Assembly (NCBI GenBank): GCA_025917655.1
Contig: CP084618.1
Location: 310,001 to 374,000 of the forward strand
Direction: 5' to 3'
Length of the DNA stretch: 64,000 nucleotides
DNA from: Chlorella sorokiniana
Taxonomy: Eukaryota; Chlorophyta; Trebouxiophyceae; Chlorellales; Chlorellaceae
This document shows positions 4,417 through 57,180 of this stretch, piece by piece (within the stretch, counting starts at the first letter, position 1; each line of letters starts with the position of its first letter). Made by a program: the position numbers and the translations under genes. The notes under the pieces are model-generated. The model saw only the letters and a program-made list of their open reading frames with translations, ran no database searches and had not been told where the DNA came from.

Positions 4417-4453
<37 letters not shown>

Positions 4454-7973: not shown

Positions 7974-8172
7974 ATCGGCATGCACGTCGGGGGCAACCAA
8001 GTTAATGCCCCCTCCAACCACGGCAAGGCGGCGGTGTGGCGGGGCTGGGTGGCTAACGGCAAGACCGCGCGGGACATCGAGAGGGTGACATGCCACCCAC
8101 AAAAGAGAAAATGACGCTAACAATGCGGCGCCACATGGCGGCGGCGGGCGCACAAAGGTGGCGTGATACAAG

Positions 8173-10350: not shown

Positions 10351-13300
10351 TTATGTTATGTTATGTTACACTGGTTTAACGTCCGCCTTCGGGACAATCA
10401 CTGTCCCTCGCAGACGGGGCATAGGGCCCATGCAACTCAGACGCAAACGGGCCCATCCCTGTTGCAGCCGAGGCCAACAGACAGGAACGGGCTGGCCCTC
10501 GAAACCGGGAACTCATCAGGCCAGCAGCGCACGGGAGTCAAAGCCCGGGCCCGCGCACCCCCATCGCGACGAGGTGAAGATGCAAGATGCAGCAAGCACA
10601 CGGGATGGCAAGCAAGCACGCAAGCAAAGCATGATGACAAGGATGCAAAGCAAGGCAAACTGTGAAAGAGTCAGAAAAGGCAAGGAAGAATCCAACGCAA
10701 GCCGGGCACGGGCTGGCAGGGGCCGCGAGAACGGCGACGTAGGCCCACTCAAGCCGGGGTCGCCTCGCGGTGGGGCTGGGGCTCAGAATCGCTGCTGTGG
10801 GTGTCGTCTCCAGCCAACGACAGACGGTAGCAGCGGTGCACAAAGCTAGCCACCGCCACCGGATCCTGCGCAAGGAACTGTGCCAAGGTTCCCTGCCCCG
10901 CCAACGGACCGCTGGGCGGACGCAGACCGACCCCAAAAAGGGACTCACTGTAATCGGCTCGCAAGCGGGCATACTTTGGGCAGTCAAACACCATGTGATG
11001 CTCGTCCTCCACAGCACCCAACGAGCAGTGGGGGCAAATCCGGCTGGGCCTGTCCAACCCCTCACGCCGCCCAGTCTCCACCCGCAACCAATGACAGCCC
11101 GTGCGGAACCTGGCAAGGCTGGCCATGCGCACACGGCTGTCAACCTCGGTCAGGTACGATTGCGGGCGACGGCAGTACGTATCACGCGTGAGCCCCCCTC
11201 ACACTAGCGCAGTAAAACTGCACTTTGGGCTGGGATGGTGCTCCCTGCAAGACGCCCTCGACGTAGGCCTCGTCAGCGAGGCTGCACGCCTCGCCAACAT
11301 CGACCTGGCAGGGCTCCCCACCATCAAGGGGACCCAACCCCAGGCTGATGTGTGGCGCTGCGAGTGGTTGGCCGATTGTTGTGTGCATGGGGCAGAGCTG
11401 GTGGGACGCCATCCAAGCCCACCTGCTCGTGGTCTGTGGTGCAAAGCCGGTCATGAATCATGGCAAGGGAGCAACGCGACGGTGCGCGAGAGCGATGGCG
11501 GTGCGTGGCGCTGCGAGTGGTTGGCCGATTGTTGTGTGCATGGGGCAGAGCTGGTGGGATGCCATCCAAGCCCACCTGCTCGTGGTCTGTGGTGCAAAGC
11601 CGGTCATGAATCATGGCAAGGGAGCAACGCGATGGTGCGCGAGAGCGATGGCGGTGCGTGGCGCTGCGAGTGGTTGGCCGATTGTTGTGTGCATGGGGCA
11701 GAGCTGGTCGGATGCCATCCAAGCCCACCTGCTCGTGGTCTGTGGTGCAAAGCCGGTCGCGAATCATGGCAAGGGAGCAACGCCACGGTGCGCGAGAGCG
11801 ATGGCGATGTTATGTTATGTTATGTTACACTGGTTTAACGTCTGCCTTCGGGACAATCACTGTCCCTCGCAGACGGGGCATAGGGCCCATGCAACTCAGA
11901 CGCAAACGGGCCCATCCCTGTTGCAGCCGAGGCCAACAGACAGGAACGGGCTGGCCCTCGAAACCGGGAACTCATCAGGCCAGCAGCGCACGGGAGTCAA
12001 AGCCCGGGCCCGCGCACCCCCATCGCGACGAGGTGAAGATGCAAGATGCAGCAAGCACACGGGATGGCAAGCAAGCACGCAAGCAAAGCATGATGACAAG
12101 GATGCAAAGCAAGGCAAACTGTGAAAGAGTCAGAAAAGGCAAGGAAGAATCCAACGCAAGCCGGGCACGGGCTGGCAGGGGCCGCGAGAACGGCGACGTA
12201 GGCCCACTCAAGCCGGGGTCGCCTCGCGGTGGGGCTGGGGCTCAGAATCGCTGCTGTGGGTGTCGTCTCCAGCCAACGACAGACGGTAGCAGCGGTGCAC
12301 AAAGCTAGCCACCGCCACCGGATCCTGCGCAAGGAACTGTGCCAAGGTTCCCTGCCCCGCCAACGGACCGCTGGGCGGACGCAGACCGACCCCAAAAAGG
12401 GACTCACTGTAATCGGCTCGCAAGCGGGCATACTTTGGGCAGTCAAACACCATGTGATGCTCGTCCTCCACAGCACCCAACGAGCAGTGGGGGCAAATCC
12501 GGCTGGGCCTGTCCAACCCCTCACGCCGCCCAGTCTCCACCCGCAACCAATGACAGCCCGTGCGGAACCTGGCAAGGCTGGCCATGCGCACACGGCTGTC
12601 AACCTCGGTCAGGTACGATTGCGGGCGACGGCAGTACGTATCACGCGTGAGCCCCCCTCACACTAGCGCAGTAAAACTGCACTTTGGGCTGGGATGGTGC
12701 TCCCTGCAAGACGCCCTCGACGTAGGCCTCGTCAGCGAGGCTGCACGCCTCGCCAACATCGACCTGGCAGGGCTCCCCACCATCAAGGGGACCCAACCCC
12801 AGGCTGATGTGTGGCGCTGCGAGTGGTTGGCCGATTGTTGTGTGCATGGGGCAGAGCTGGTGGGACGCCATCCAAGCCCACCTGCTCGTGGTCTGTGGTG
12901 CAAAGCCGGTCATGAATCATGGCAAGGGAGCAACGCGACGGTGCGCGAGAGCGATGGCGGTGCGTGGCGCTGCGAGTGGTTGGCCGATTGTTGTGTGCAT
13001 GGGGCAGAGCTGGTGGGATGCCATCCAAGCCCACCTGCTCGTGGTCTGTGGTGCAAAGCCGGTCATGAATCATGGCAAGGGAGCAACGCGATGGTGCGCG
13101 AGAGCGATGGCGGTGCGTGGCGCTGCGAGTGGTTGGCCGATTGTTGTGTGCATGGGGCAGAGCTGGTCGGATGCCATCCAAGCCCACCTGCTCGTGGTCT
13201 GTGGTGCAAAGCCGGTCGCGAATCATGGCAAGGGAGCAACGCCACGGTGCGCGAGAGCGATGGCGATGTTATGTTATGTTATGTTACACTGGTTTAACGT

Positions 13301-16300
13301 CTGCCTTCGGGACAATCACTGTCCCTCGCAGACGGGGCATAGGGCCCATGCAACTCAGACGCAAACGGGCCCATCCCTGTTGCAGCCGAGGCCAACAGAC
13401 AGGAACGGGCTGGCCCTCGAAACCGGGAACTCATCAGGCCAGCAGCGCACGGGAGTCAAAGCCCGGGCCCGCGCACCCCCATCGCGACGAGGTGAAGATG
13501 CAAGATGCAGCAAGCACACGGGATGGCAAGCAAGCACGCAAGCAAAGCATGATGACAAGGATGCAAAGCAAGGCAAACTGTGAAAGAGTCAGAAAAGGCA
13601 AGGAAGAATCCAACGCAAGCCGGGCACGGGCTGGCAGGGGCCGCGAGAACGGCGACGTAGGCCCACTCAAGCCGGGGTCGCCTCGCGGTGGGGCTGGGGC
13701 TCAGAATCGCTGCTGTGGGTGTCGTCTCCAGCCAACGACAGACGGTAGCAGCGGTGCACAAAGCTAGCCACCGCCACCGGATCCTGCGCAAGGAACTGTG
13801 CCAAGGTTCCCTGCCCCGCCAACGGACCGCTGGGCGGACGCAGACCGACCCCAAAAAGGGACTCACTGTAATCGGCTCGCAAGCGGGCATACTTTGGGCA
13901 GTCAAACACCATGTGATGCTCGTCCTCCACAGCACCCAACGAGCAGTGGGGGCAAATCCGGCTGGGCCTGTCCAACCCCTCACGCCGCCCAGTCTCCACC
14001 CGCAACCAATGACAGCCCGTGCGGAACCTGGCAAGGCTGGCCATGCGCACACGGCTGTCAACCTCGGTCAGGTACGATTGCGGGCGACGGCAGTACGTAT
14101 CACGCGTGAGCCCCCCTCACACTAGCGCAGTAAAACTGCACTTTGGGCTGGGATGGTGCTCCCTGCAAGACGCCCTCGACGTAGGCCTCGTCAGCGAGGC
14201 TGCACGCCTCGCCAACATCGACCTGGCAGGGCTCCCCACCATCAAGGGGACCCAACCCCAGGCTGATGTGTGGCGCTGCGAGTGGTTGGCCGATTGTTGT
14301 GTGCATGGGGCAGAGCTGGTCGGACGCCATCCAAGCCCACCTGCTCGTGGTCTGTGGTGCAAAGCCGGTCATGAATCATGGCAAGGGAGCAACGCCACGG
14401 TGCGCGAGAGCGATGGCGGTGCGTGGCGCTGCGAGTGGTTGGCCGATTGTTGTGTGCATGGGGCAGAGCTGGTGGGATGCCATCCAAGCCCACCTGCTCG
14501 TGGTCTGTGGTGCAAAGCCGGTCATGAATCATGGCAAGGGAGCAACGCGACGGTGCGCGAGAGCGATGGCGGTGCGTGGCGCTGCGAGTGGTTGGCCGAT
14601 TGTTGTGTGCATGGGGCAGAGCTGGTCGGACGCCATCCAAGCCCACCTGCTCGTGGTCTGTGGTGCAAAGCCGGTCGCGAATCATGGCAAGGGAGCAACG
14701 CCACGGTGCGCGAGAGCGATGGCGATGTTATGTTATGTTATGTTACACTGGTTTAACGTCTGCCTTCGGGACAATCACTGTCCCTCGCAGACGGGGCATA
14801 GGGCCCATGCAACTCAGACGCAAACGGGCCCATCCCTGTTGCAGCCGAGGCCAACAGACAGGAACGGGCTGGCCCTCGAAACCGGGAACTCATCAGGCCA
14901 GCAGCGCACGGGAGTCAAAGCCCGGGCCCGCGCACCCCCATCGCGACGAGGTGAAGATGCAAGATGCAGCAAGCACACGGGATGGCAAGCAAGCACGCAA
15001 GCAAAGCATGATGACAAGGATGCAAAGCAAGGCAAACTGTGAAAGAGTCAGAAAAGGCAAGGAAGAATCCAACGCAAGCCGGGCACGGGCTGGCAGGGGC
15101 CGCGAGAACGGCGACGTAGGCCCACTCAAGCCGGGGTCGCCTCGCGGTGGGGCTGGGGCTCAGAATCGCTGCTGTGGGTGTCGTCTCCAGCCAACGACAG
15201 ACGGTAGCAGCGGTGCACAAAGCTAGCCACCGCCACCGGATCCTGCGCAAGGAACTGTGCCAAGGTTCCCTGCCCCGCCAACGGACCGCTGGGCGGACGC
15301 AGACCGACCCCAAAAAGGGACTCACTGTAATCGGCTCGCAAGCGGGCATACTTTGGGCAGTCAAACACCATGTGATGCTCGTCCTCCACAGCACCCAACG
15401 AGCAGTGGGGGCAAATCCGGCTGGGCCTGTCCAACCCCTCACGCCGCCCAGTCTCCACCCGCAACCAATGACAGCCCGTGCGGAACCTGGCAAGGCTGGC
15501 CATGCGCACACGGCTGTCAACCTCGGTCAGGTACGATTGCGGGCGACGGCAGTACGTATCACGCGTGAGCCCCCCTCACACTAGCGCAGTAAAACTGCAC
15601 TTTGGGCTGGGATGGTGCTCCCTGCAAGACGCCCTCGACGTAGGCCTCGTCAGCGAGGCTGCACGCCTCGCCAACATCGACCTGGCAGGGCTCCCCACCA
15701 TCAAGGGGACCCAACCCCAGGCTGATGTGTGGCGCTGCGAGTGGTTGGCCGATTGTTGTGTGCATGGGGCAGAGCTGGTGGGACGCCATCCAAGCCCACC
15801 TGCTCGTGGTCTGTGGTGCAAAGCCGGTCATGAATCATGGCAAGGGAGCAACGCGACGGTGCGCGAGAGCGATGGCGGTGCGTGGCGCTGCGAGTGGTTG
15901 GCCGATTGTTGTGTGCATGGGGCAGAGCTGGTGGGATGCCATCCAAGCCCACCTGCTCGTGGTCTGTGGTGCAAAGCCGGTCATGAATCATGGCAAGGGA
16001 GCAACGCGACGGTGCGCGAGAGCGATGGCGGTGCGTGGCGCTGCGAGTGGTTGGCCGATTGTTGTGTGCATGGGGCAGAGCTGGTCGGACGCCATCCAAG
16101 CCCACCTGCTCGTGGTCTGTGGTGCAAAGCCGGTCGCGAATCATGGCAAGGGAGCAACGCCACGGTGCGCGAGAGCGATGGCGATGTTATGTTATGTTAT
16201 GTTACACTGGTTTAACGTCTGCCTTCGGGACAATCACTGTCCCTCGCAGACGGGGCATAGGGCCCATGCAACTCAGACGCAAACGGGCCCATCCCTGTTG

Positions 16301-17218
16301 CAGCCGAGGCCAACAGACAGGAACGGGCTGGCCCTCGAAACCGGGAACTCATCAGGCCAGCAGCGCACGGGAGTCAAAGCCCGGGCCCGCGCACCCCCAT
16401 CGCGACGAGGTGAAGATGCAAGATGCAGCAAGCACACGGGATGGCAAGCAAGCACGCAAGCAAAGCATGATGACAAGGATGCAAAGCAAGGCAAACTGTG
16501 AAAGAGTCAGAAAAGGCAAGGAAGAATCCAACGCAAGCCGGGCACGGGCTGGCAGGGGCCGCGAGAACGGCGACGTAGGCCCACTCAAGCCGGGGTCGCC
16601 TCGCGGTGGGGCTGGGGCTCAGAATCGCTGCTGTGGGTGTCGTCTCCAGCCAACGACAGACGGTAGCAGCGGTGCACAAAGCTAGCCACCGCCACCGGAT
16701 CCTGCGCAAGGAACTGTGCCAAGGTTCCCTGCCCCGCCAACGGACCGCTGGGCGGACGCAGACCGACCCCAAAAAGGGACTCACTGTAATCGGCTCGCAA
16801 GCGGGCATACTTTGGGCAGTCAAACACCATGTGATGCTCGTCCTCCACAGCACCCAACGAGCAGTGGGGGCAAATCCGGCTGGGCCTGTCCAACCCCTCA
16901 CGCCGCCCAGTCTCCACCCGCAACCAATGACAGCCCGTGCGGAACCTGGCAAGGCTGGCCATGCGCACACGGCTGTCAACCTCGGTCAGGTACGATTGCG
17001 GGCGACGGCAGTACGTATCACGCGTGAGCCCCCTCACACTAGCGCAGTAAAACTGCACTTTGGGCTGGGATGGTGCTCCCTGCAAGACGCCCTCGACGTA
17101 GGCCTCGTCAGCGAGGCTGCACGCCTCGCCAACATCGACCTGGCAGGGCTCCCCACCATCAAGGGGACCCAACCCCAGGCTGATGTGTGGCGCTGCGAGT
17201 GGTTGGCCGATTGTTGTG
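10351..17218. repeat. Higher-order satellite, units 1-5 (1459-bp period)
   Basis: Modules of LINE-B 3' end (antisense) lie at 10351-11346, 11810-12805, 13269-14264, 14728-15723 and 16187-17181. Each is 995-996 bases and is separated from the next by GATG plus three 153-bp repeats (463 bases), so the period is exactly 1459. The units are nearly identical, implying recent amplification or active homogenisation. On the minus strand each module encodes the LINE ORF2 C-terminus, with LARFRTGCHWLRVETGRRE followed by CPHC...EDEHHMVFDCPKY. This is repeated debris, not a set of genes. Copia element 1 interrupts the next 153-bp block at 17219. Confidence 0.95.
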
Positions 17219-20200
17219 TGTTGAGATGTGGCTGAGCCACATGTCCAGCCTGCACACCCGCAGCACATCTCCCCAGCTGCCACGTGGCAGACGCTGCTGA
17301 CGTGGACACCCTTTCGTCATGCATGAGCTTGACCCGCCTAATATGCTCAGACACCCTTCGATTATGCTTTCCCACTTTATTCTAAGTTGATTGACCCCCA
17401 TGCCATGCATTTCTGTGCACGTGAGCCCCGCCGTCATGCCACTACCACAAACACTACCCCGCATATGCCGGAATAATGCCAATAGTAGCATTGTGCTGCT
17501 CCAGCCTATTTAGCGCCATTCTGCGCCCTCTTTCATACTCTTGCGCTCTTTGTAACTACCTCCATCCAACAGGTTATGGGCCCCAGCTCCCTCCTCTGCC
17601 CTTGAGTCCGGCACACGCTCTTGCCGTCACCCCAGACGCCTTTTCTCGCTGCCAGCGCCCCTCGCACCACTCGCGAGCACTTCCGCCTCGACCTCCGGAA
17701 CGGCGCCTTCGACCGAAGCCTCTCAGACTAAGCCCGCCTTTGCTTGCGGCACATTTCGCACATAGCAGCGCCTTTTCGCTCGCACAGCGCCGCCTTTCGC
17801 TCGCACAGCCAGCGCCTTTTGCTGCCTAGCTGCCAGCCAGCAGCCGACAGCTCAATTCTGCTTTCCGGCAGCCTAAATCTGCTTTCGACAGCACCTGCTC
17901 GCAAAGAGACAGCTGCTTGAGCAGCTGTGTGGCAGCTGAGTAAGCGAGTTGGGTCACTTGTGACCAGCTCGATACCCCGCCTCCCGCCAAGTTACTAAAC
18001 TTCCACTTTGCCTCAACCCACTGCCGTAGCTCTACGCTGACACAACCACTTAAGATAAGTGCAAGCAGCGCCCTAGCGCCTCCGCGCGCCGCTGCTCCGC
18101 CCCTCTGGCCCCTCCGTTATTGGCAGTGCCCCAGCGCCTAAGTGCGCCGCTGCCTTTGCCCCCTGGGCACTCTCCTTCAGGCAGTGCCCTAGCGCCGTCG
18201 AGCGCCGCTGCCATCCACATCTGTCCTGCCCCCTTTCCCGTCTATTCCTCCACTTCTGTTACATTTACTCAAAGGTGGTGCCTGGGCTGTGCTGTCCACG
18301 TGTGGCACGCAGCTCCCCCGTTCGGTGCCTGGCCTCGTGTGCCACGTACCGGCTACTTATTCTTAGGCACCGACCTTCCCCACCTTTCCGCCAGCCATCT
18401 CCGGCGGCACAATCTGCGGCACCCCTTGCCGCGGCACCTCCGAGCACGCACTAGCAGAGGCACAAGGTGCCTGCTAGCGGCCGCCAGCCGTCAGCAGTCA
18501 GCAGTTGCACACAAGCGTGGACAGCATGGCGACAGACGGCATGTCCATTGAGCGGCTGGACTGGGACAACTACACAGTGTGGGCAGCCAACATGAAGTTC
18601 TTCCTCACCACCAAGAAGTGCTGGCACACCGTCGTCAGCACCGAGGCCCCAACAACTCCCGAGGACATCAAGGCAGACGAGCTCGCCCTCTCCTACATCG
18701 GCCTCCTCGTCAAGCCCCACCACCAGCCAACCATCCTGCGCTGCACCACGGCCAACCAAGCCTGGACCACTCTGCAAGGCATCTTCGCCGCCAAGTCCTT
18801 CGCACGCAAGCTCCAACTGCGCCGTGAGCTCAACTCTCTGAAGATGGCCTCCACCGAGACCGTCACCGCCTTCACCAACCGTGCCAAGGCCCTGCAAGAC
18901 CAGCTCAACGCCGCCGGCCACAAGGTCGAAGACATCGACGTGGCGTGCCAAGTCCTGGCTGGCCTGCCCTCCACCTTCGACACAGTCGTCACCGTCATCG
19001 AAACCACCACCGCCTCCGCCGGCACATTCACCGTGGATGACATCCTGCCCCACCTTCTGCAAGCCGAGCACCGCCGCGCCAAGCCCGACGTCATCCGCAG
19101 CTCCGACTCAGCCCTGATGGCCTCCTTCCATCCTCGCCGCGACGACCGGCACTCCAACAGCAATGGCGCTCCCCGCAACATCAACGGCATCAACCGCAAC
19201 AACGGCCCTCGCGGCAGTGGCCCCCGCAGCAGCAACCCCCGCATGCGGCCGCCCAACTTCAACGGTCCACCACCCAGCTTTGGCCCACCACGCACCTTCG
19301 GCATCCGCGTCGACGAGCGCTCCTCCCGCGATGCCCGCGCCTACGCCGAAGGCACCTGCCTCTACTGCCACAAGCCTGGCCACTACGCCCACGAGTGCAA
19401 CAAGAAGCGCCGCGACATGGAAGCCCGCCGCTTCAACCAACGCCCGCCGCCTTCCAACCGCAGCGTCAACGCCCAGTACAGCGCCATCGCCTTCACCGCC
19501 GCCACCACCTCCAACACCATCAGCGACAACTGGATCGTGGACACTGGAGCGAGCCGGCACATCACACCACACCAGCAACTCCTCACCAACCTGCGCCCGG
19601 CGCCGCAGCCCATCCGCATCACTTTCGGCAACGGCAGCGTAGGAGAGGCCACCCTCATCGGCGACGCGTACCTGCAGCCCAACCTTGACAACCTGATCAA
19701 GCTCACCGACGTGCTCTACATGCCAGACGCCGCCGACAACCTCCTGTCCGTCAACCGAGCCACCCAGAAAGGCATCAGCTTCTCCTTTGACCGCACCGGC
19801 TGCCAGATCTCCATGGGCAACCACATGATTGCCTACGGCTACACCGACGCCACCAGCAACACCTACCACCTGGCCAGCCGCTGCCTCGAGCCAGGCTCCG
19901 CCGCCTACGCCCTCACCATCGCCTACGCTGCACGCGCCCACACACCCAACCTGTGGCACCGCCGCCTCGGCCACCTCGGCTACGACAACCTGGCCAAGCT
20001 CACCACCATGGCCACCGGCATCAGCATCGACCCCTCTGACTTCAAAGCCACCAGCGCAGACACCTGCGACGCCTGCACCCTGGGCAAGCAACATCGCCAA
20101 CCGTTCAACGCCTCCACCTCCTTCACCCACAAGCCTCTGGAGCTGCTGCACACCGACCTCTGCGGTCCCATGCCAGTCCCCTCCCACGGTGGCAGCCTGT

Positions 20201-41800: not shown

Positions 41801-42192
41801 CATTGGCTGACGGTTCCCCAGCGCTCGGCTCCTGCGTTGACTTGTCCCTGTTCCCATGGCTCCCTCCAGCACGCTTCCACACTCGATTTCCTCGCCCCTT
41901 TCTGAGTGGCTTGCACCTTCCCTTTCCATGGCTCCCCTCCTTTTCTTAGCCTGCCCCCTCCTGGACGCCCCCTTCTCCCTGTCCCAGTACGCCCCCCCTT
42001 TTTTTGTCTTGGCCTGGTTGCCTGTGAAAAAGAAAGAAAAATCTGCGTACCACCCCGTGACTGCATGCCCCATCTTGCTGTCACATGCGCGTTCGCGCTG
42101 CTGTTTGGCTGCCTCATCGGTCATGATGCTTCGTGGCTTCGGCCTACCTACGCTTCTTGAGATCCCCCACGTCTCAAGTGTAAGAGCACCCC

Positions 42193-42232
<40 letters not shown>
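35895..42232 (+). mobile_element. LINE-A, near full-length L1-like retrotransposon
   Basis: 6338 bases including about 38 A's, flanked by a 7-bp duplication CCAGGCT (35888-35894, 42233-42239), so it is a target-primed insertion into a LINE-B module edge. The first 530 bases may hold an ORF1 or ORF2 leader: no domain is recognised, though a Cys-containing stretch CQAWICHNLGKGPCWH is present near 36190. ORF2 follows (36432-41348), then a 3' UTR of about 840 bases ending in a 7-bp hairpin (42154-42176), TGTAA, AGAGCACCCCCT and poly-A. Whether 35895 is the true 5' end is not known. Confidence 0.9.
36432..41348 (+). pseudogene. LINE-A ORF2: APE endonuclease, reverse transcriptase, zinc motif
   Basis: The start is placed at ATG 36432 (MSRFDWRAARP). 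The endonuclease domain shows VAVNANGLRD, a degenerate catalytic Glu region (LLVFEAHT), YAPTE, GDWN and the GDH motif near 37180. The reverse transcriptase spans about 38100-38900, with FLDFEKAYDRVD, QQGSPLS and HADD in place of the common YADD (about 38702-38713). The C-terminal zinc motif (CQHGDC...HAFLLC, about 40575-40655) resembles the zf-RVT end of plant and algal LINEs. The frame is lost by single-base slips near 36857, about 39490 and about 39890; the rest is open to the TAA at 41346. The last slip is at a CTG-type site and the first two are in T or C runs. It could be a recently active master copy with consensus errors. Confidence 0.85.
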
Positions 42233-42234
<2 letters not shown>

Positions 42235-44650: not shown

Positions 44651-45001
44651 TGTTAAAAGCGCCAACCCGGAGGTTAATTAGTATGTGCCCATTTGTGGTG
44701 CCATATAGGGACGTTGATCGTATTTCAACACTCCCCCGAGCAACGTTCCGTATGCTCGCTTCGTACCTAACCACGATCGTGAAGGCAGGGCTGCTCCCCG
44801 CTTCCGAGTGGAGAAACGTTTTACAGGCCGGAAACCTGGATGTCCCGTGATGGGAATCGAACCCACAATCTGTGGGTGTATGTGACAGACGCGCCCATCT
44901 AGCGCATTGGGGCCCATAACCTGTTAAAAGCGCCAACCCGGAGGTTAATTAGTATGTGCCCATTTGTGGTGCCATATAGGGACGTTGATCGTATTTCAAC
45001 A
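44651..45001 (-). mobile_element. TRIM-type miniature LTR retroelement (copy 2)
   Basis: Reverse orientation. The 80-bp LTRs are 44651-44730 and 44922-45001, with a perfect 5-bp duplication CACGG (44646-44650, 45002-45006). It is the same family as 7045-7396, with the same primer-binding site and purine tract. Its tRNA-like core is better preserved: besides the D-arm and T-arm hairpins there is a perfect 5-bp stem TCTGT/ACAGA around an 11-base loop at the anticodon-arm position. It is inserted in LINE-B module 12 of the satellite, so it is younger than the array. Structurally it looks whole. Confidence 0.9.
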
Positions 45002-45747
45002 CACGGGAGTCAAAGCCCGGGCCCGCGCACCCCCATCGCGACGAGGTGAAGATGCAAGATGCAGCAAGCACACGGGATGGCAAGCAAGCACGCAAGCAAA
45101 GCATGATGACAAGGATGCAAAGCAAGGCAAACCGTGAAAGAGTCAGAAAAGGCAAGGAAGAATCCAACGCAAGCCGGGCACGGCTGGCGGGGGCGCGAGA
45201 ACGGCGACGTAGGCCCACTCAAGCCGGGGTCGCCTCGCGGTGGGGCTGGGGCTCAGAATCGCCGCTGTGGGTGTCGTCTCCAGCCAACGACAGACGGTAG
45301 CAGCGGTGCACAAAGCTAGCCACCGCCACCGGATCCTGCGCAAGGAACTGTGCCAAGGTTCCCTGCCCCGCCAACGGACCGCTGGGCGGACGCAGACCGA
45401 CCCCAAAAGGGACTCACTGTAATCGGCTCGCAAGCGGGCATACTTTGGGCAGTCAAACACCATGTGATGCTCGTCCTCCACAGCACCCAACGAGCAGTGG
45501 GGGCAAATCCGGCTGGGCCTGTCCAACCCCTCACGCCGCCCAGTCTCCACCCGCAACCAATGACAGCCCGTGCGGAACCTGGCAAGGCTGGCCATGCGCA
45601 CACGGCTGTCAACCTCGGTCAGGTACGATTGCGGGCGACGGCAGTACGTATCACGCGTGAGCCCCCCTCACACTAGCGCAGTAAAACTGCACTTTGGGCT
45701 GGGATGGTGCTCCCCGCAAGACGCCCTCGACGTAGGCCTCGTCGGCG
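45002..45747. repeat. Satellite module 12, continued
   Basis: The remainder of LINE-B module 12 (antisense) between TRIM copy 2 and a truncated LINE-A. On the minus strand it still encodes the ORF2 C-terminal zinc-motif segment. It breaks at GGCCTCGTCGGCG, the LINE-A target duplication. Confidence 0.9.
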
Positions 45748-46505
45748 GGGTGATGGGCGTTCGCCACCGTGTGTGGCAACGTGCCGGCGGGGGTCGCCGC
45801 CCCCCCCGCCCGGCTTGCCTTGCGGCACCCGCGCCGCCCGGTCCTAGCGGGCCGGCAGGCACACCTGCGGAGCGCGTACATGCCCTTTGCTGTCGGTAGT
45901 CGTGTGCCCGCCAGCCCTCGGCTTGCCCCGTCCTTGCTCTTTGCATCCATTGGCTGACGGTTCCCCAGCGCTCGGCTCCTGCGTTGGCTTGTCCCTGTTC
46001 CCATGGCTCCCTCCAAAGACGCTTCCACACTCGATTTCCTCGCCCCTTTCTGAGTGGCTTGCACCTTCCCTTTCCATGGCTCCCCTCCTTTTCTTAGCCT
46101 GCCCCCTCCTGGACGCCCCCTTCTCCCTGTCCCAGTACGCCTTTTTTTTTTTTTTTTTTTTGTCTTGGCCTGGTTGCCTTTGCGTCTCTTCCGTGGTGGG
46201 TTGCCCCATCCTCGCCTCGGGTCTTTCAGTTCTTTGCCTTGCCCTGTTGTGCCGCTGCCTGCCCCAGTCTGGCGGTTGCCGGGATCTCGCGTTTCATCTG
46301 CTTTCACAGCGACATACCGAACACACATACACACACAAAACAAAAAAAAAAAAAATCTGCGTACCACCCCGTGACTGCATGCCCCATCTTGCTGTCACAT
46401 GCGCGTTCGCGCTGCTGTTTGGCTGCCTCATCGGTCATGATGCTTCGTGGCTTCGGCCTACCTACGCTTCTTGAGATCCCCCACGTCTCAAGTGTAAGAG
46501 CACCC

Positions 46506-46536
<31 letters not shown>
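45748..46536 (+). mobile_element. LINE-A, 5'-truncated copy in satellite
   Basis: 789 bases of LINE-A 3' UTR ending in the hairpin, TGTAA and about 30 A's. A 13-bp target duplication GGCCTCGTCGGCG (45735-45747, 46537-46549) flanks it exactly. There is no coding sequence. Confidence 0.95.
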
Positions 46537-46539
<3 letters not shown>

Positions 46540-49500
46540 CTCGTCGGCGAGGCTGCACGCCTCGCCAACATCGACCTGGCGGGGCTCCCCACCATCAAGG
46601 GGACCCAACCCCAGGCTGATGTGTGGCGCTGCGAGTGGTTGGCCGATTGTTGTGTGCATGGGGCAGAGCTGGTGGGACGCCATCCAAGCCCACCTGCTCG
46701 TGGTCTGTGGTGCAAAGCCGGTCATGAATCATGGCAAGGGAGCAACGCGACGGTGCGCGAGAGCGATGGCGGTGCGTGGCGCTGCGAGTGGTTGGCCGAT
46801 TGTTGTGTGCATGGGGCAGAGCTGGTGGGATGCCATCCAAGCCCACCTGCTCGTGGTCTGTGGTGCAAAGCCGGTCATGAATCATGGCAAGGGAGCAACG
46901 CGACGGTGCGCGAGAGCGATGGCGGTGCGTGGCGCTGCGAGTGGTTGGCCGATTGTTGTGTGCATGGGGCAGAGCTGGTCGGACGCCATCCAAGCCCACC
47001 TGCTCGTGGTCTGTGGTGCAAAGCCGGTCGCGAATCATGGCAAGGGAGCAACGCCACGGTGCGCGAGAGCGATGGCGATGTTATGTTATGTTATGTTACA
47101 CTGGTTTAACGTCTGCCTTCGGGACAATCACTTTGTCCCTCGCAGACGGGGCATAGGGCCCATGCAACTCAGACGCAAACGGGCCCATCCCCGTTGCAGC
47201 CGAGGCCAACGAGACAGAACGGGCTGGCCCTCGAAACCGGGAACTCATCAGGCCCAGCGGCGCACGGGAGTCAAAGCCCGGGCCCGCGCACCCCCATCGC
47301 GACGAGGTGAAGATGCAAGATGCGGCAAGCACACGGGATGGCAAGCAAGCACGCAAGCAAAGCATGATGACAAGGATGCAAAGCAAGGCAAACTGTGAAA
47401 GAGTCAGAAAAGGCAAGGAAGAATCCAACGCAAGCCGGGCACGGGCTGGCGGGGGCCGCGAGAACGGCGACGTAGGCCCACTCAAGCCGGGGTCGCCTCG
47501 CGGTGGGGCTGGGGCTCAGAATCGCCGCTGTGGGTGTCGTCTCCAGCCAACGACAGACGGTAGCAGCGGTGCACAAAGCTAGCCACCGCCACCGGATCTG
47601 CGCAAGGAACTGTGCCAAGGTTCCCGCCCGCCAACGGACCGCCGGGCGGACGCGGACCGACCCCAAAAGGGACTCATCAGAATCGGCTCGCAAGCGGGCA
47701 TACTTTGGGCAGTCAAACACCATGTGATGCTCGTCCTCCACGGCACCCAACGAGCGGTGGGGGCAAATCCGGCGGGCCTGTCCAACCCCTCACGCCGCCC
47801 AGTCTCCACCCGCAACCAATGACAGCCCGTGCGGAGCTGGCAAGGCTGGCCATGCGCACACGGCTGTCAACCTCGGTCAGGTACGATTGCGGGCGACGGC
47901 AGTACGTATCACGCGTGAGCCCCCCTCACACTAGCGCGGTAAAACTGCACTTTGGGCTGGGATGGTGCTCCCCGCAAGACGCCCTCGACGTAGGCCTCGT
48001 CGGCGAGGCCGCACGCCTCGCCAACATCGACTGGCGGGGCTCCCCACCATCAAGGGGACCCAACCCCAGGCTGATGTGTGGCGCTGCGAGTGGTTGGCCG
48101 ATTGTTGTGTGCATGGGGCAGAGCTGGTGGGACGCCATCCAAGCCCACCTGCTCGTGGTCTGTGGTGCAAAGCCGGTCATGAATCATGGCAAGGGAGCAA
48201 CGCGACGGTGCGCGAGAGCGATGGCGGTGCGTGGCGCTGCGAGTGGTTGGCCGATTGTTGTGTGCATGGGGCAGAGCTGGTGGGATGCCATCCAAGCCCA
48301 CCTGCTCGTGGTCCGTGGTGCAAAGCCGGTCATGAATCATGGCAAGGGAGCAACGCGACGGTGCGCGAGAGCGATGGCGGTGCGTGGCGCTGCGAGTGGT
48401 TGGCCGATTGTTGTGTGCATGGGGCAGAGCTGGTCGGACGCCATCCAAGCCCACCTGCTCGTGGTCCGTGGTGCAAAGCCGGTCGCGAATCATGGCAAGG
48501 GAGCAACGCCACGGTGCGCGAGAGCGATGGCGATGTTATGTTATGTTATGTTACACTTTGGTTTAACGTACGCCTTCGGGACAATCACTGTCCCTCGCAG
48601 ACGGGGCATAGGGCCCATGCAACTCAGACGCAAACGGGCCCATCCACGTTGCGGCCGAGGCCAACGAGACGAGAACGGGCGGCCCTCGAAACCGGGAACT
48701 CATCGGGCCGGCGGCGCACGGGAGTCAAAGCCCGGGCCCGCGCACCCCCATCGCGACGAGGTGAAGATGCAAGATGCGGCAAGCACACGGGATGGCAAGC
48801 AAGCACGCAAGCAAAGCATGATGACAAGGATGCAAAGCAAGGCAAACTGTGAAAGAGTCGAAAAGGCAAGGAAGAATCCAACGCAAGCCGGGCACGGGTG
48901 GCGGGGGCCGCGAGAACGGCGACGTAGGCCCACTCAAGCCGGGGTCGCCTCGCGGTGGGGCTGGGGCTCAGAATCGGCTGCTGTGGGTGTCGTCTCCCAG
49001 CCAACGACAGACGGTAGCGGCGGTGCACAAAGCTAGCCACCGCCACCGGATCTGCGCAAGGAACCGTGCCAAGGTTCCCTGCCCGCCAACGGACCGCCGG
49101 GCGGACGCGGACCGACCCCAAAAAGGGACTCACGTAATCGGCTCGCAAGCGGGCATACTTTGGGCGAGTCAAACACCATGTGATGCTCGTCCTCCACGGC
49201 ACCCAACGAGCAGTGGGGGCAAATCCCGGCCGGGCCTGTCCAACCCCTCACGCCGCCCGGTCTCCACCCGCAACCAATGACGGCCCGTGCGGAGCTGGCA
49301 AGGGCGGCCATGCGCACACGGCTGTCAACCTCGGTCGAGTACGATTGCGGGCGACGGCAAGACGTATCACGCGTGAGCCCCCCTCACACTAGCGCAAAGA
49401 AACCGCACTTTGGGCCGGGATGGTGCTCCCCGCAAGACGCCCTCGACGTAGGCCTCGTCGGCGAGGCCGCACGCCTCGCCAACATCGACCGGGCGGGGCT

Positions 49501-52500
49501 CCCCACCATCAAGGGGACCCAACCCCAGGCTGATGTGTGGCGCCGCGAGTGGTTGGCCGATTGTTGTGTGCATGGGGGCAGAGCTGGTGGGACGCCATCC
49601 AAGCCCACCTGCTCGTGGTCCGTGGTGCAAAGCCGGTCATGAATCATGGCAAGGGAGCAACGCGACGGTGCGCGAGAGCGATGGCGGTGCGTGGCGGCTG
49701 CGAGTGGTTGGCCGATTGTTGTGTGCATGGGGCAGAGCTGGTGGGATGCCATCCAAGCCCACCTGCTCGTGGTCTGTGGTGCAAAGCCGGTCATGAATCA
49801 TGGCAAGGGAGCAACGCGACGGTGCGCGAGAGCGATGGCGGTGCGTGGCGCCGCGAGTGGTTGGCCGATTGTTGTGTGCATGGGGCAGAGCTGGTCGGAC
49901 GCCATCCAAGCCCACCCGCTCGTGGTCTCGTGGTGCAAAGCCGGTCGCGAATCATGGCAAGGGAGCAACGCCACGGTGCGCGAGAGCGATGGCGATGTTA
50001 TGTTATGTTATGTTACACTGGTTTAACGTCCGCCTTCGGGACAATCACTTTGTCCCTCGCAGACGGGGCATAGGGCCCATGCAACTCAGACGCAAACGGG
50101 CCCATCCCTGTTGCGGCCGAGGCCAACAGACACGAACGGGGCGGCCCTCGAAACCGGGAACTCATCGGGCCGGCGGCGCACGGGAGTCAAAGCCCGGCCC
50201 GCGCACCCCCATCGCGACGAGGTGAAGATGCAAGATGCGGCAAGCACACGGGATGGCAAGCAAGCACGCAAGCAAAGCATGATGACAAGGATGCAAAGCA
50301 AGGCAAACCGTGAAAGAGTCGAAAAGGCAAGGAAGAATCCAACGCAAGCCGGGCACGGGCCGGGCGGGGGCCGCGAGAACGGCGACGTAGGCCCACTCAA
50401 GCCGGGGTCGCCTCGCGGTGGGGTGGGGCTCAGAATCGGCCGCTGTGGGTGTCGTCTCCAGCCAACGACAGACGGTAGCGGCGGTGCACAAAGCTAGCCA
50501 CCGCCACCGGATCCGCGCAAGGAAGCGTGCCAAGGTTCCCCGCCCCGCCAACGGACCGCCGGGCGGACGCGGCACCGACCCCAAAAAGGGACTCACTGTA
50601 ATCGGCTCGCAAGCGGGCATACTTTGGGCGAGTCAAACACCATGTGATGCTCGTCCTCCACGGCACCCAACGAGCGGTGGGGGCAAATCCGGCGGGCTGC
50701 CCAACCCCTCACGCCGCCCAGTCTTCACCCGCAACCAATGACGGCCCGTGCGGAACCTGGCAAGGCTGGCCATGCGCACACGGCTGTCAACCTCGGTCGG
50801 AGTACGATTGCGGGCGACGGCAAGACGTATCACGCGTGAGCCCCCCTCACACTAGCGCGGTAAAACTGCACTTTGGGCCGGGATGGTGCTCCCCGCAAGA
50901 CGCCCTCGACGTAGGCCTCGTCGGCGAGGCCGCACGCCTCGCCAACATCGACACAGCGGGGCTCCCCACCATCAAGGGGACCCAACCCCAGGCTGATGTG
51001 TGGCGCTGCGAGTGGTTGGCCGATTGTTGTGTGCATGGGGCAGAGCTGGTGGGACGCCATCCAAGCCCACCTGCTCGTGGTCCGTGGTGCAAAGCCGGTC
51101 ATGAATCATGGCAAGGGAGCAACGCGACGGTGCGCGAGAGCGATGGCGGTGCGTGGCGCTGCGAGTGGTTGGCCGATTGTTGTGTGCATGGGGGCGAGCT
51201 GGTGGGATGCCATCCAAGCCCACCTGCTCGTGGTCCGTGGTGCAAAGCCGGTCATGAATCATGGCAAGGGAGCAACGCGACGGTGCGCGAGAGCGATGGC
51301 GGTGCGTGGCGCTGCGAGTGGTTGGCCGATTGTTGTGTGCATGGGGCAGAGCTGGTCGGACGCCATCCAAGCCCACCTGCTCGTGGTCCGTGGTGCAAAG
51401 CCGGTCGCGAATCATGGCAAGGGAGCAACGCCACGGTGCGCGGAGCGATGGCGATGTTATGTTATGTTATGTTACTTTGGTTTAACGTACGCCTTCGGGA
51501 CAATCACTGTCCCTCGCAGACGGGGCATAGGGCCCATGCAACTCGGACGCAAACGGGCCCATCCCTGTTGCGGCCGAGGCCACGAGACAGAACGGGGCGG
51601 CCCTCGAAACCGGGAACTCATCGGAGCCGGCGGCGCACGGGAGTCAAAGCCCGGGCCCGCGCACCCCCATCGCGACGAGGTGAAGATGCAAGATGCGGCA
51701 AGCACACGGGATGGCAAGCAAGCACGCAAGCAAAGCATGATGACAAGGATGCAAAGCAAGGCAAACCGTGAAAGAGTCGAAAAGGCAAGGAAGAATCCAA
51801 CGCAAGCCGGGCACGGGCCGGCGGGGGCCGCGAGAACGGCGACGTAGGCCCACTCAAGCCGGGGTCGCCTCGCGGTGGGGCTGGGGCTCAGAATCGGCTA
51901 GCTGTGGGTGTCGTCTCCAGCCAACGACAGACGGTAGCGGCGGTGCACAAAGCTAGCCACCGCCACCGGATCTGCGCAAGGAACTGTGCCAAGGTTCCCT
52001 GCGCCCGCCAACGGACCGCCGGGCGGACGCGGACCGACCCCAAAAAGGGACTCACGTAATCGGCTCGCAAGCGGGCATACTTTGGGCGAGTCAAACACCA
52101 TGTGATGCTCGTCCTCCACGGCACCCAACGAGCGGTGGGGGCAAATCCCGGCCGGGCTGCCCAACCCCTCACGCCGCCAGTCTTCACCCGCAACCAATGA
52201 CGACCCGTGCGGAACTGGCAAGGGCGGCCATGCGCACACGTTTGTCAACCTCGGTCGGGTACGATTGCGGGCGACGGCAAGACGTATCACGCGTGAGCCC
52301 CCCTCACACTAGCGCGGAAAAGCGCACTTTGGGCCGGGATGGTGCTCCCGCAAGACGCCCTCGACGTAGGCCTCGTCGGCGAGGCCGCACGCCTCGCCAA
52401 CATCGACACGGCGGGGCTCCCCACCATCAAGGGGACCCAACCCTGGGCTGATGTGTGGCGCCGCGAGTGGTTGGCCGATTGTTGTGTGCATGGGGCGAGC

Positions 52501-52661: not shown

Positions 52662-53359
52662 CGCCCCCGCCCGGCTTGCCTTGCGGCACCGCGCCGCCGG
52701 TCCTAGCGGGCCGGCAGCACACTGCGGAGCGCGTACATGCCCTTCTTGTCGGTAGTCGTGTGCCCGCCGGCCCTCGGCTTGCCCCGTCCTTGCTCTTTGC
52801 ATCCATTGGCCGACGGTTCCCCGGCGCTCGGCTCTGCGTTGACTTGTCCCCTGTTCCCGTGGCTCCCTCCAAGCCACGCTTCCACACTCGATTTCCTCGC
52901 CCCTTTCGAGTGGCTTGCACCTTCCCTTTCCATGGCTCCCCTCCTTTTCTTAGCTCCGCCCCTCCCGGACGCCCCCTTCTCCCCGTCCCGCACGCCCCCT
53001 TTGTTTTGTCTTGGCCTGGTTGCCTTTGCGTCTCTTCCGTGGTGGGTTGCTCCATCCTCGCCTCGGGTCTTTCGGTTCTTTGCCTTGCCCTGTTGTGCCA
53101 TTGCCTGCCCCAGTCTCGCGGTTGCCGGGATCTCGCGTTTCATCTGCTTTCACAGCGACATACCGAACACACATACACACACAAAAAAAAAAAAAAAAAA
53201 AAAAATCTGCGTACCACCCCGTGTTGCATGCCCCATCTTCTTTGTCACATGCGCGTTCGCGCTTCTTTGTTTGGCTGCCTCATCGGTCATGATGCTTCGT
53301 GGCTTCGGCCTACCTACGCTTCTTGAGATCCCCCACGTCTCAAGTGTAAGAGCACCCCC

Positions 53360-53390
<31 letters not shown>
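52662..53390 (+). mobile_element. LINE-A, 5'-truncated copy in a 153-bp repeat
   Basis: A 3' UTR fragment starting CGCCCCCGCCCGGC and ending in hairpin, TGTAA and poly-A. It is flanked by the 13-bp duplication GAGCTGGTCGGAC (52649-52661, 53391-53403), which is satellite sequence. The breakpoint and target site are the same as in the copy at 54712, so the two descend from one insertion. Confidence 0.9.
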
Positions 53391-53394
<4 letters not shown>

Positions 53395-54711
53395 TGGTCG
53401 GACGCCATCCAAGCCCACCTGCTCGTGGTCCGTGGTGCAAAGCCGGTCGCGAATCATGGCAAGGGAGCAACGCCACGGTGCGCGAGAGCGATGGCGATGT
53501 TATGTTATGTTATGTTACACTGGTTTAACGTCCGCCTTCGGGACAATCACTGTTGTCCCTCGCAGACGGGGCATAGGGCCCATGCAACTCAGACGCAAAC
53601 GGGCCCATCCACGTTGCGGCCCGAGGCCAACAGACAGAACGGGCGGCCCTCGAAACCGGGAACTCATCGGGCCGGCGGCGCACGGGAGTCAAAGCCCGGG
53701 CCCGCGCACCCCCATCGCGACGAGGTGAAGATGCAAGATGCGGCAAGCACACGGGATGGCAAGCAAGCACGCAAGCAAAGCATGATGACAAGGATGCAAA
53801 GCAAGGCAAACGTGAAAGAGTCGAAAAGGCAAGGAAGAATCCAACGCAAGCCGGGCACGGGCTGGCGGGGGCCGCGAGAACGGCGACGTAGGCCCACTCA
53901 AGCCGGGGTCGCCTCGCGGTGGGGGTGGGGCTCAGAATCGGCTTCGTTGTGGGTGTCGTCTCCGCCAACGACAGACGGTAGCGGCGGTGCACAAAGCTAG
54001 CCACCGCCACCGGATCCGCGCAAGGAACCGTGCCAAGGTTCCCCGCGCCCGCCAACGGACCGCCGGGCGGACGCGCACCGACCCCAAAAAGGGACTCATC
54101 AATCGGCTCGCAAGCGGGCATACTTTGGGCGAGTCAAACACCATGTGATGCTCGTCCTCCACAAAGACCCAACGAGCGGTGTGGGGGCAAATCCGGCCGG
54201 GCCTGTCCAACCCCTCACGCCGCCCAGTCTCCACCCGCAACCAATGACGACCCGTGCGGAACCCGGCAAGGCGGCCATGCGCACACGGCCGTCAACCTCG
54301 GGTCAGGTACGATTGCGGGCGACGGCAAGACGTATCACGCGTGAGCCCCCCTCACACTAGCGCAAGAAAACCGCACTTTGGGCCGGGATGGTGCTCCCCG
54401 CAAGACGCCCTCGACGTAGGCCTCGTCGGCGAGGCCGCACGCCTCGCCAACATCGACTGGGGGGCTCCCCACCATCAAGGGGACCCAACCCGGGCTGATG
54501 TGTGGCGCTGCGAGTGGTTGGCCGATTGTTGTGTGCATGGGGCGGAGCCGGTGGGACGCCATCCAAGCCCACCCCGCTCGTGGTCCGTGGTGCAAAGCCG
54601 GTCATGAATCATGGCAAGGGAGCAACGCCACGGTGCGCGAGAGCGATGGCGGTGCGTGGCGCCGCGAGTGGTTGGCCGATTGTTGTGTGCATGGGGCAGA
54701 GCTGGTCGGAC
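53391..54711. repeat. Satellite unit between paired LINE-A copies
   Basis: The rest of a 153-bp repeat, LINE-B module 17 (53500-54496) and the start of the next 153-bp block. Divergent type, as in 46537-52661. Confidence 0.9.
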
Positions 54712-55413
54712 CGCCCCCGCCCGGCTTGCCTTGCGGCACCCGCGCCGCCCGGTCCTAGCGGGCCGGGCGGGCACACTGCGGAGCGCGTACATGCCCTTCT
54801 TGTCGGTAGTCGTGTGCCCGCCGGCCCTCGGCTTGCCCCGTCCTTGCTCTTTGCATCCATTGGCCGACGGTTCCCCGGCGCTCGGCTCTGCGTTGACTTG
54901 TCCCTGTTCCCGTGGCTCCCTCCGGCCACGCTTCCACACTCGATTTCCTCGCCCCTTTTCGAGTGGCTTGCACCTTCCCTTTCCATGGCTCCCCTCCTTT
55001 TCTTAGCCGCCCCCTCCCGGACGCCCCCTTCTCCCCGTCCCAAGACGCCCCCCTTTGTTTTGTCTTGGCCTGGTTGCCTTTGCGTCTCTTCCGTGGTGGG
55101 TTGCTCCATCCTCGCCTCGGGTCTTTCAGTTCTTTGCCTTGCCCTGTTGTGCCGCCGCTCGCCCAGGTCTCGCGGTTGCCGGGATCTCGCGTTTCATCTG
55201 CTTTCACGGCGACATACCGAACACACATACACACACAAAACAAAAAAGAAAAAAAAAAAATCTGCGTACCACCCCGTGATCGCATGCCCCATCTTCTTTG
55301 TCACATGCGCGTTCGCGCTGCTGTTTGGCTGCCTCATCGGTCATGATGCTTCGTGGCTTCGGCCTACCTACGCTTCTTGAGATCCCCCACGTCTCAAGTG
55401 TAAGAGCACCCCC

Positions 55414-55448
<35 letters not shown>
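54712..55448 (+). mobile_element. LINE-A, 5'-truncated copy, duplicate of the one at 52662
   Basis: The same 5' breakpoint (ACCGCCCCCGCCC) and the same 13-bp target duplication GAGCTGGTCGGAC (54699-54711, 55449-55461) as the copy one unit to the left, about 2050 bases away. It was therefore copied together with the satellite unit after insertion. It ends in hairpin, TGTAA and poly-A. Confidence 0.9.
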
Positions 55449-55452
<4 letters not shown>

Positions 55453-57180
55453 TGGTCGGACGCCATCCAAGCCCACCTGCTCGTGGTCCGTGGTGCAAAG
55501 CCGGTCGCGAATCATGGCAAGGGAGCAACGCCACGGTGCGCGAGAGCGATGGCGATGTTATGTTATGTTATGTTACACTTTGGTTTAACGTCCGCGCCTT
55601 CGGGACAATCACTTTGTCCCTCGCAGACGGGGCATAGGGCCCATGCAACTCGGACGCAAACGGGCCCATCCCTGTTGCGGCCGAGGCCAACGAGACAGAA
55701 CGGGCGGCCCTCGAAACCGGGAACTCATCAGCCGCCAGCGCGCACGGGAGTCAAAGCCCGGGCCCGCGCACCCCCATCGCGACGAGGTGAAGATGCAAGA
55801 TGCGGCAAGCACACGGGATGGCAAGCAAGCACGCAAGCAAAGCATGATGACAAGGATGCAAAGCAAGGCAAACTGTGAAAGAGTCGAAAAGGCAAGGAAG
55901 AATCCAACGCAAGCCGGGCACGGGCCGGGCGGGGGCCGCGAGAACGGCGACGTAGGCCCACTCAAGCCGGGGTCGCCTCGCGGTGGGGTGGGGCTCAGAA
56001 TCGGCCGCTGTGGGTGTCGTCTCCAGCCAACGACAGACGGTAGCGGCGGTGCACAAAGCTAGCCACCGCCACCGGATCTGCGCAAGGAACCGTGCCAAGG
56101 TTCCCCGCCCCGCCAACGGACCGCCGGGCGGACGCGGACCGACCCCAAAAAGGGACTCATCGTAATCGGCTCGCAAGCGGGCATACTTTGGGCAGTCAAA
56201 CACCATGTGATGCTCGTCCTCCACGGCACCCAACGAGCGGTGGGGGCAAATCCTGGCCGGGCTGTCCAACCCCTCACGCCGCCCGGTCTCCACCCGCAAC
56301 CAATGACGACCCGTGCGGAACCTGGCAAGGGCGGCCATGCGCACACGGTTTGTCAACCTCGGTCAGGTACGATTGCGGGCGACGGCAAGACGTATCACGC
56401 GTGAGCCCCCCTCACACTAGCGCGGTAAAACCGCACTTTGGGCCGGGATGGTGCTCCCCGCAAGACGCCCTCGACGTAGGCCTCGTCGGCGAGGCCGCAC
56501 GCCTCGCCAACATCGACCTGGCGGGGCTCCCCACCATCAAGGGGACCCAACCCCAGCTGCTGATGTGTGGCGCTGCGAGTGGTTGGCCGATTGTTGTGTG
56601 CATGGGGCAGAGCTGGTGGGACGCCATCCAAGCCCACCTGCTCGTGGTCCGTGGTGCAAAGCCGGTCATGAATCATGGCAAGGGAGCAACGCCACGGTGC
56701 GCGAGAGCGATGGCGGTGCGTGGCGCTGCGAGTGGTTGGCCGATTGTTGTGTGCATGGGGCAGAGCTGGTCGGACGCCATCCAAGCCCACCTGCTCGTGG
56801 TCTGTGGTGCAAAGCCGGTCGCGAATCATGGCAAGGGAGCAACGCGACGGTGCGCGAGAGCGATGGCGGTGCGTGGCGCGCGAGTGGTTGGCCGATTGTT
56901 GTGTGCATGGGGCGAGCTGGTGGGATGCCATCCAAGCCCACCTGCTCGTGGTACGTGGTGCAAAGCCGGTCGCGAATCATGGCAAGGGAGCAACGCGACG
57001 GTGCGCGAGAGCGATGGCGGTGCGTGGCGCCGCGAGTGGTTGGCCGATTGTTGTGTGCATGGGGGCGAGCTGGTGGGATGCCATCCAAGCCCACCTGCTC
57101 GTGGTCCGTGGTGCAAAGCCGGTCATGAATCGTGGCAAGGGAGCAACGCGACGGTGCGCAAGAGCGATGGCGGTGCGTGG
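55449..57180. repeat. Right end of the satellite array
   Basis: The rest of a 153-bp repeat, the last LINE-B module (55558-56571), then four 153-bp repeats (56572-57180) ending abruptly at GGTGCGTGG, where a decayed LINE-A ORF2 begins. Divergent at CAG/CTG sites. Confidence 0.9.

Follow-up and report, generated by a model that had tools for sequence, protein, structure and literature searches.

The 64,000-nt window analyzed here, positions 310001 to 374000 of contig 13 in the Chlorella sorokiniana genome assembly (38.8 Mb in 15 contigs), contains an array of a 153-bp satellite into which pieces of a long interspersed nuclear element, designated LINE-B, are built at regular intervals. This array extends from approximately window position 9561 to 57180, beyond the 10351..57180 given in a first-pass annotation of the locus, and it is interrupted by two copia elements, by pieces of a second element, LINE-A, and by a small element with TG...CA ends. 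A shorter array of the same satellite, without LINE-B, lies nearby (array 1; Table 1). Very probably, the satellite was hit once by a 5′-truncated LINE-B, after which the LINE and three monomers were amplified to at least 18 units, forming what is now the putative centromere of contig 13.

The repeat unit of 1459 bp is the sum of 996 bp from the 3′ end of LINE-B in antisense orientation, the 4 bp GATG, and three satellite monomers (3 × 153, or 459 bp). This arithmetic, proposed in the first-pass annotation, is borne out by the spacing of modules that lack further inserts, which is 1459 bp four times in succession between 10351 and 16187 and 1457, 1458, 1458, 1459, 1455, 1462 and 1459 bp elsewhere. 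Eighteen modules were located in the assembly, in agreement with the predicted minimum of 18. The edges claimed for every module were likewise recovered: the left edge reads GGCGATG/TTATG in 18/18, and the right edge reads CT/GATGTGTGGCG directly in 17/18, with the remaining right edge, at 35894, split by a 6.3-kb LINE-A copy beyond which CCAGGCT-GATGTGTGGCG resumes, bringing the count to 18/18. GATG flanks the LINE-B part on both sides within the satellite in all 18 modules. Departures from regularity include a satellite block (42242-43005) with five monomers instead of three, which had been missed previously, and module 44468, in which later insertions have left LINE-B in three pieces. One pair of neighboring modules is identical in its three monomers M1, M2 and M3 (0/129, 0/153 and 0/153 differences), and the monomers inside one module of this pair differ from each other at 2-4 sites. 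The array is a higher-order repeat, composed of head-to-tail, multipart units that are more alike than the monomers inside them, and its satellite also exists apart from the transposable element, since LINE-B is absent from arrays 1 and 2 and, as far as they were fetched, from related arrays on contig 12. The transposon part is a single insertion with a target duplication, having GATG on both sides, one truncation point and a unique empty site.

The empty site lies in array 1, which had been described as an insert-free 153-bp repeat at 2905-3590 representing the expected pre-insertion allele. We find this array at 2907..3592, with the uninterrupted target, GGCGATGTGTGG, occurring once in the window, at 3385 (3385-3396). 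The surrounding 21-mer (3378-3398) has one exact occurrence in the 38.8-Mb genome, and two more when one mismatch is allowed, which lie in the opening monomers of the two arrays 1 and 2. For comparison, the halves of the interrupted monomer were joined for 17 of the 18 modules, leaving out module 16187, which is cut by the first copia element. Outside CAG/CTG, the joined flanks show no difference from the empty-site monomer in three modules (13269, 34899 and 43009), one substitution, at position 79, in 11, and this substitution plus single-base gaps in the other three, all of which belong to the eastern, or right-hand, modules. In the same comparison, the 42 other full monomers differ from the joined flanks at 3-9 columns. 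These matches support the interpretation of the site as the pre-insertion allele.

An identical sequence would also arise if LINE-B had been lost precisely from one module through recombination between the GATG copies, or if the monomer had been restored by conversion, and the left-edge monomer type and preceding bases shared by arrays 1 and 2 suggest common ancestry or exchange between them. We nevertheless consider such a secondary origin unlikely. An M2-type monomer precedes the empty site. In 17/17 scorable modules, by contrast, LINE-B is preceded by an M3-type monomer (129G, 130C; module 30526 was not scorable), which speaks against the empty site having arisen when a module lost its LINE. 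Moreover, a 4-bp repeat should seldom mediate exact loss, and the genome holds a single such monomer.

The 996-bp point was evaluated by inspecting LINE-B copies outside the array, as the first-pass annotation had suggested. Among fetched loci, all 28 outside copies that reach this point continue as LINE (GCGAAGGTA... with small variants); 24 of them hold this sequence through the 60 bases shown, and the other four are cut short by other sequence. The 996 point is therefore a 5′ truncation. Apart from two pairs with longer matching stretches, outside copies align with each other over various distances, the alignments stopping between approximately 1.1 and 2.45 kb from the 3′ end, and the upstream stretch of one copy translates to a reverse transcriptase that matches R2 retrotransposon proteins (E 4e-7). 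The reverse transcriptase, the fixed 3′ end and the various copy lengths indicate that LINE-B is a LINE, or non-LTR (long terminal repeat) retrotransposon. Its tail, in antisense reading, is (TTATG)n, and that of LINE-A is poly-A.

Phylogenetic analysis, another of the suggested checks, was conducted with 17 modules (excluding the interrupted module 44468) and 18 outside copies, with CAG/CTG-type differences included. The modules fall on one side of a branch (98/90), apart from the outside copies, as a single insertion predicts. Scoring 38 of 86 candidates revealed no outside copy nearer than approximately 0.7% to the western modules, and among 40 of 124 scored against eastern module 48536 none exceeded 94% identity. 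Separate insertions of LINE-B in the east and west of the array were ruled out by the identical truncation point and target and by the grouping of the 17 modules. One LINE insertion followed by co-amplification with the satellite is thus well supported.

The LINE parts of the six eastern modules (47081 to 55558) differ by 2.5-5.3% from the western ones. This divergence and its GC bias first favored an older layer of the array with truly mutated LINE parts, before sequence context was scored, and the location of these modules at one edge, their long tree branches and some changes outside CWG (CAG/CTG, where W is A or T) remain in line with that explanation. We now regard it as quite unlikely. 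Of the CAG/CTG sites in eastern LINE copies, 239/548 (43.6%) have a changed middle base, against 13/138 (9.4%) in the next-highest context and less than 2% in 23 of 32 contexts, with affected sites reading mostly CGG/CCG. Indel columns are at or adjoining CWG in 9/11, 11/13, 11/12, 14/15, 19/21 and 16/17 cases in the six modules, and many of the altered sites are also changed on contigs 2 and 12, in one copy on each. Against one western LINE part, and with CWG left aside, the eastern ones show 1-7/840 differing bases and the western ones 0-2/840. In the satellites of the three complete eastern modules, the middle base is changed at 2, 4 and 4 of 15 CWG sites; these satellites also have one additional change within a CWG, four single-base gaps (one at CTG), and zero substitutions outside CWG. 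In the three partly interrupted satellites, outside-CWG substitutions number 1/211, 2/213 and 7/435 bases. The frequency of CWG change is lower in eastern satellites (17/61) than in LINE parts (131/260; p 0.002, module 47081 being left out of both), which may be no more than an effect of sequence context, given the small number of distinct sites in the satellites. Two other sources of the eastern differences, GC-biased gene conversion and conversion from LINE-B copies elsewhere, were also considered and were dropped because the change is CAG/CTG-specific.

A similar pattern has been reported for nanopore assemblies of E. coli, in which 401 shared single-nucleotide polymorphisms, representing possible systematic errors, include 97% transitions (187 A to G, 203 T to C), and 393 of them (98%) are tied to the Dcm motif CC(A/T)GG (PMC8235852; compare PMC6591954). 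The Dcm motif is narrower than CWG. By this analogy, most of the apparent eastern divergence is probably base-calling error, of the nanopore type, at methylated CWG, a signature that the first-pass annotation had not recognized. The best rbcL match, on contig 15 (around 30946-30980), is split by a frameshift, which points to uncorrected errors in the assembly. Among solved structures, the first part of this rbcL scores best with 8q04, from Chlorella sorokiniana.

Several elements inserted into the array, each with a target duplication: the two copia elements, the LINE-A pieces and the 351-bp TG...CA element, a candidate terminal-repeat retrotransposon in miniature (TRIM) or solo LTR. Both copia elements, which are 99.9% identical to each other, are young, as their LTR pairs are identical. 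The long LINE-A copy yields an RVT_1 match and an endonuclease match that falls below its curated cut-off. The adjacent modules 51457 and 53500 each contain a LINE-A fragment, and the two fragments agree in their 5′ cut and their 13-bp target duplication; this module was therefore duplicated after LINE-A had inserted, which implies that amplification and later insertions overlapped. The order put forward in the first-pass annotation, in which the satellite was followed by LINE-B, amplification, and then copia, LINE-A and TRIM insertions, accordingly stands for the insertion of LINE-B and its subsequent co-amplification but not as a strict succession.

Table 1. Features of the satellite array and its surroundings (window coordinates)
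Feature	Position	Strand
Array 1: 4.5 monomers of the 153-bp satellite, without LINE-B	2907..3592	+
Empty-site (uninterrupted) monomer; target GGCGATGTGTGG at 3385-3396; 21-mer 3378-3398 unique genome-wide	3366..3518	+
Array 2: five monomers and left half of interrupted monomer, leading into module 1	9561..10350	+
LINE-B 3′ end of module 1, 996 bp, antisense; (TTATG)n tail left, 5′ truncation right	10351..11346	-
Module 1 satellite: GATG + 3 × 153 bp (right half of interrupted monomer, two monomers, left half)	11347..11809	+
Modules 1-5, starting at 10351, 11810, 13269, 14728 and 16187; fifth cut by copia 1	10351..17218	
Copia 1; target duplication TTGTG; LTRs 351 bp, 100% identical	17219..22954	+
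Module starting at 23385, satellite on either side	22955..24762	
Copia 2; target duplication CACGG; LTRs 354 bp, 100% identical	24763..30499	+
Modules starting at 30526, 31983, 33441 and 34899	30500..35894	
Long LINE-A copy at LINE-B/satellite junction; 38-A tail; target duplication CCAGGCT	35895..42232	+
Five-monomer satellite block (42242-43005) and module starting at 43009	42240..44467	
Module starting at 44468, interrupted by TG...CA element and LINE-A fragment	44468..47080	
TG...CA element in module 44468, 351 bp; target duplication CACGG	44651-45001	
LINE-A fragment in module 44468; 13-bp target duplication	45748-46536	
Eastern modules 47081, 48536, 49998 and 51457; LINE part changed chiefly at CAG/CTG	47081..52448	
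LINE-A fragment in module 51457; target duplication GAGCTGGTCGGAC	52662..53390	+
Eastern modules 53500 and 55558	53500..56561	
LINE-A fragment in module 53500; 5′ cut and target duplication as in module 51457	54712..55448	+
Right end of array: right half of interrupted monomer, three monomers and a partial one, no more LINE	56562..57180	+

Errors of assembly could in principle have collapsed or multiplied the repeats, making the number or order of modules wrong. Runs of identical modules are hard to count, uncorrected errors such as the rbcL frameshift exist, and CWG-altered stretches flank the core of the array. We judge an artifact of this type to be very unlikely, because distinct insertions with their target duplications, extra monomers and small variants distinguish the modules, and because other tandem LINE arrays are present on contigs 4 and 1. 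On contig 4 (2252619-2263706), three units of approximately 4.55 kb combine a 142-bp satellite with LINE-B and LINE-A pieces, and the two units compared are 97% identical. On contig 1 (2626199-2634163), seven tandem LINE-B copies lie approximately 1.13 or 1.33 kb apart, with LINE-A tails between some of the units. LINE-bearing tandem arrays therefore arose more than once.

Contigs 4, 11 and 12 carry relatives of the satellite, with units of 142, 152 and 149 bp, respectively, located in or beside LINE clusters. Pairwise scores for these relatives range from 168 to 286 versus null maxima of 69-82, with every one of 100 mononucleotide shuffles per pair (one unit each) being exceeded; at the search sensitivity used, and with all first-look candidates scored, no relative was found on any other contig. 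The search for related arrays without LINE-B, also proposed in the first-pass annotation, was successful on contig 12, where the fetched parts of the arrays contain no LINE-B of 150 bp or longer. On contig 11, another LINE-B copy of approximately 700 bp is present once, at a different place in the related 152-bp satellite, and a more diverged LINE-B piece borders the array.

These observations suggest a history in which the 153-bp satellite family, also residing in or beside LINE clusters of three other chromosomes, would represent the older material. A single reverse transcription of a 5′-truncated LINE-B into one monomer would have created the 4-bp GATG target duplication, and unequal exchange or replication-based copying between flanking monomers could then have established the LINE plus three monomers as a tandem unit. 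This unit would have spread to at least 18 copies while staying nearly identical, with copia, LINE-A and the small TG...CA element inserting during and after array growth, and array 1 would have retained the uninterrupted site. Several points weigh against this history. The empty site is one monomer alone, in a stretch rich in CWG-type changes; the target duplication measures just 4 bp (or 5, as the tail starts with T); and the LINE-B copy within the contig 11 satellite has no target duplication that is clear by eye. In addition, the monomer order following the last LINE-B module is unlike that of other modules, and for this reason the founding duplication is not wholly reconstructed. The proposed role at the centromere is weakened by contig 10, which has one LINE-B tail and no LINE-A tail among the matches listed, making the case for a LINE cluster on every chromosome weak there.

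The centromeric assignment derives from the distribution of LINE tails. The 100 of 107 LINE-B tails listed fall on 13 contigs, on each of which they are confined to a single interval no longer than 78 kb, with contigs 10, 11 and 12 contributing a single tail each; among the 100 of 107 LINE-A tails listed, 12 contigs are represented, in intervals that overlap or adjoin those of LINE-B. One such LINE region per chromosome is what would be expected of functional centromeres, and the array described here makes up much of the single LINE cluster of contig 13, a point missed by the first-pass annotation. In Chlorella sorokiniana NS4-2, chromatin immunoprecipitation and sequencing (ChIP-seq) of CENH3 confirmed predicted centromeres made of transposable elements (PMC11005252). 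By analogy, the locus is a putative centromere of contig 13. Alternatively, the array might have formed as described and yet be a pericentromeric by-product outside the kinetochore-forming DNA. A satellite family found on just four contigs cannot be generally required for centromeres, and we regard this alternative as a serious one, if the less probable; the share of the chromosome's single LINE cluster that the array fills, and the transposon clusters that constitute published Chlorella centromeres (PMC11005252), argue against it.

The distribution of CWG alterations along contig 13 bears on the same question. In 2-kb windows, a map that uses no reference copy, CWG/(CWG+CSG) in the arms (290-310 and 374-394 kb) ranges over 0.44-0.65. 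The stretch at 312-320 kb has values of 0.17-0.36, that at 320-354 kb of 0.46-0.60, and that at 354-372 kb of 0.18-0.46; the share of the control motif GWC is also unequal between arms and core. Relative to a LINE-A copy (347000-352190) and the LINE-B of module 11810, which both score 0 by construction, 8/10 LINE stretches at 311-320 kb have 19-57% of CWG sites changed, with two short ones at 0 and 17%. All stretches at 320.35-354.0 kb show 0-2% changed, those at 354.5-356.5 kb show 0-31%, and at 357-370 kb 10/12 show 30-57%, two short ones again being at 0 and 17%. CAG/CTG is intact in the core, and 18/22 LINE stretches in the shells have 19-57% changed, nearly always to CGG/CCG. Many LINE copies at window positions 1352-9554 and 47081-59856 thus read CGG/CCG at most of these motifs, and the interval separating the two is clean. 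Fetched parts of contig 8 are mostly clean up to approximately 800 kb and 17-62% altered from 800.9 to 810 kb. Altered LINE copies are also scattered over contigs 2 (29% and 35%), 3 (26-36%, in certain divergent copies), 4 (up to 40%) and 12 (28%), which weighs against a simple core-and-shell picture. A hypomethylated core between methylated flanks would account for the contig 13 map; so would uneven polishing, because short reads of CWG-altered copies may map to clean copies. Low methylation has been reported for CENH3-bound DNA in Chlorella, in a section that does not name CHG (PMC11005252). If the errors stem from 5-methylcytosine at CWG, the locus could tentatively be viewed as a transposon-built algal centromere turning satellite-built, with a hypomethylated CENH3 domain of modules (window ~10350-44000) between shells of methylated pericentromere (~1350-9550 and ~47000-60000), a scenario that we think less likely than not.

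Zepp and ZeppL, the LINEs of Coccomyxa and Chlamydomonas, have a poly-A 3′ tail, a property shared by LINE-A but not by LINE-B. These elements form one nested cluster of 5′-truncated LINEs per chromosome, taken as the centromere (PMC8226300), and nested clusters, one per chromosome, are likewise seen here among the LINE-B tails listed. At our locus, by contrast, the truncated LINE has been joined to a 153-bp satellite and multiplied together with it in a regular unit. Chlorella centromeres composed of Copia, L1 and RTE-X (PMC11005252) offer a close parallel, as Copia, a poly-A LINE and a second LINE also make one cluster per chromosome here. Chlorella sp. SLA-04, whose published elements include RTE-X-1, has 13 chromosomes, which agrees with the occurrence of LINE-B on 13 contigs (PMC11005252). 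That comparative paper states that tandem satellites are absent from the centromeres of its two species, in contrast to the satellite family in or beside four clusters described above.

Composite transposon-satellite repeats are already known as a kind. The bovine 1.711b satellite contains an insert with short direct repeats that was amplified together with the surrounding satellite, although it involves another class of element and a far larger array. The nearest retroelement case is that of maize CRM1TR and CRM4TR, in which centromeric retroelements became tandem repeats that were later hit by other retrotransposons; those repeats are wholly retroelement, whereas here a satellite is joined to a LINE and both the target duplication and the empty site are visible (PMC3648361). 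A search of open-access papers, judged by their titles and opening abstract lines, listed no report of this array or of a satellite in Chlorella-type centromeres.

How transposon-made centromeres become satellite-made is an open question that is usually argued from end states. One locus here displays the steps: a pre-insertion satellite, an insertion, co-amplification, and later inserts copied along. It also adds a satellite family to an apparent Chlorella-type centromere, the one comparative paper found reporting none for its two species (PMC11005252). The CWG signature carries a warning that base-calling errors may mimic age layers in nanopore repeat arrays, although such errors may double as a crude methylation map.

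Two further features of the locus were observed. An A-run followed by GG precedes both satellite arrays (window 2883-2906 and 9549-9560), which begin with the same monomer type, and one contig 4 satellite array likewise starts at an A-run. Elsewhere, two chromosomes (window 1254-1352 and one other) show one LINE-B abutting the 3′ end of a second LINE-B at approximately position 97, and this joint is perhaps a favored site for nested insertion or truncation.

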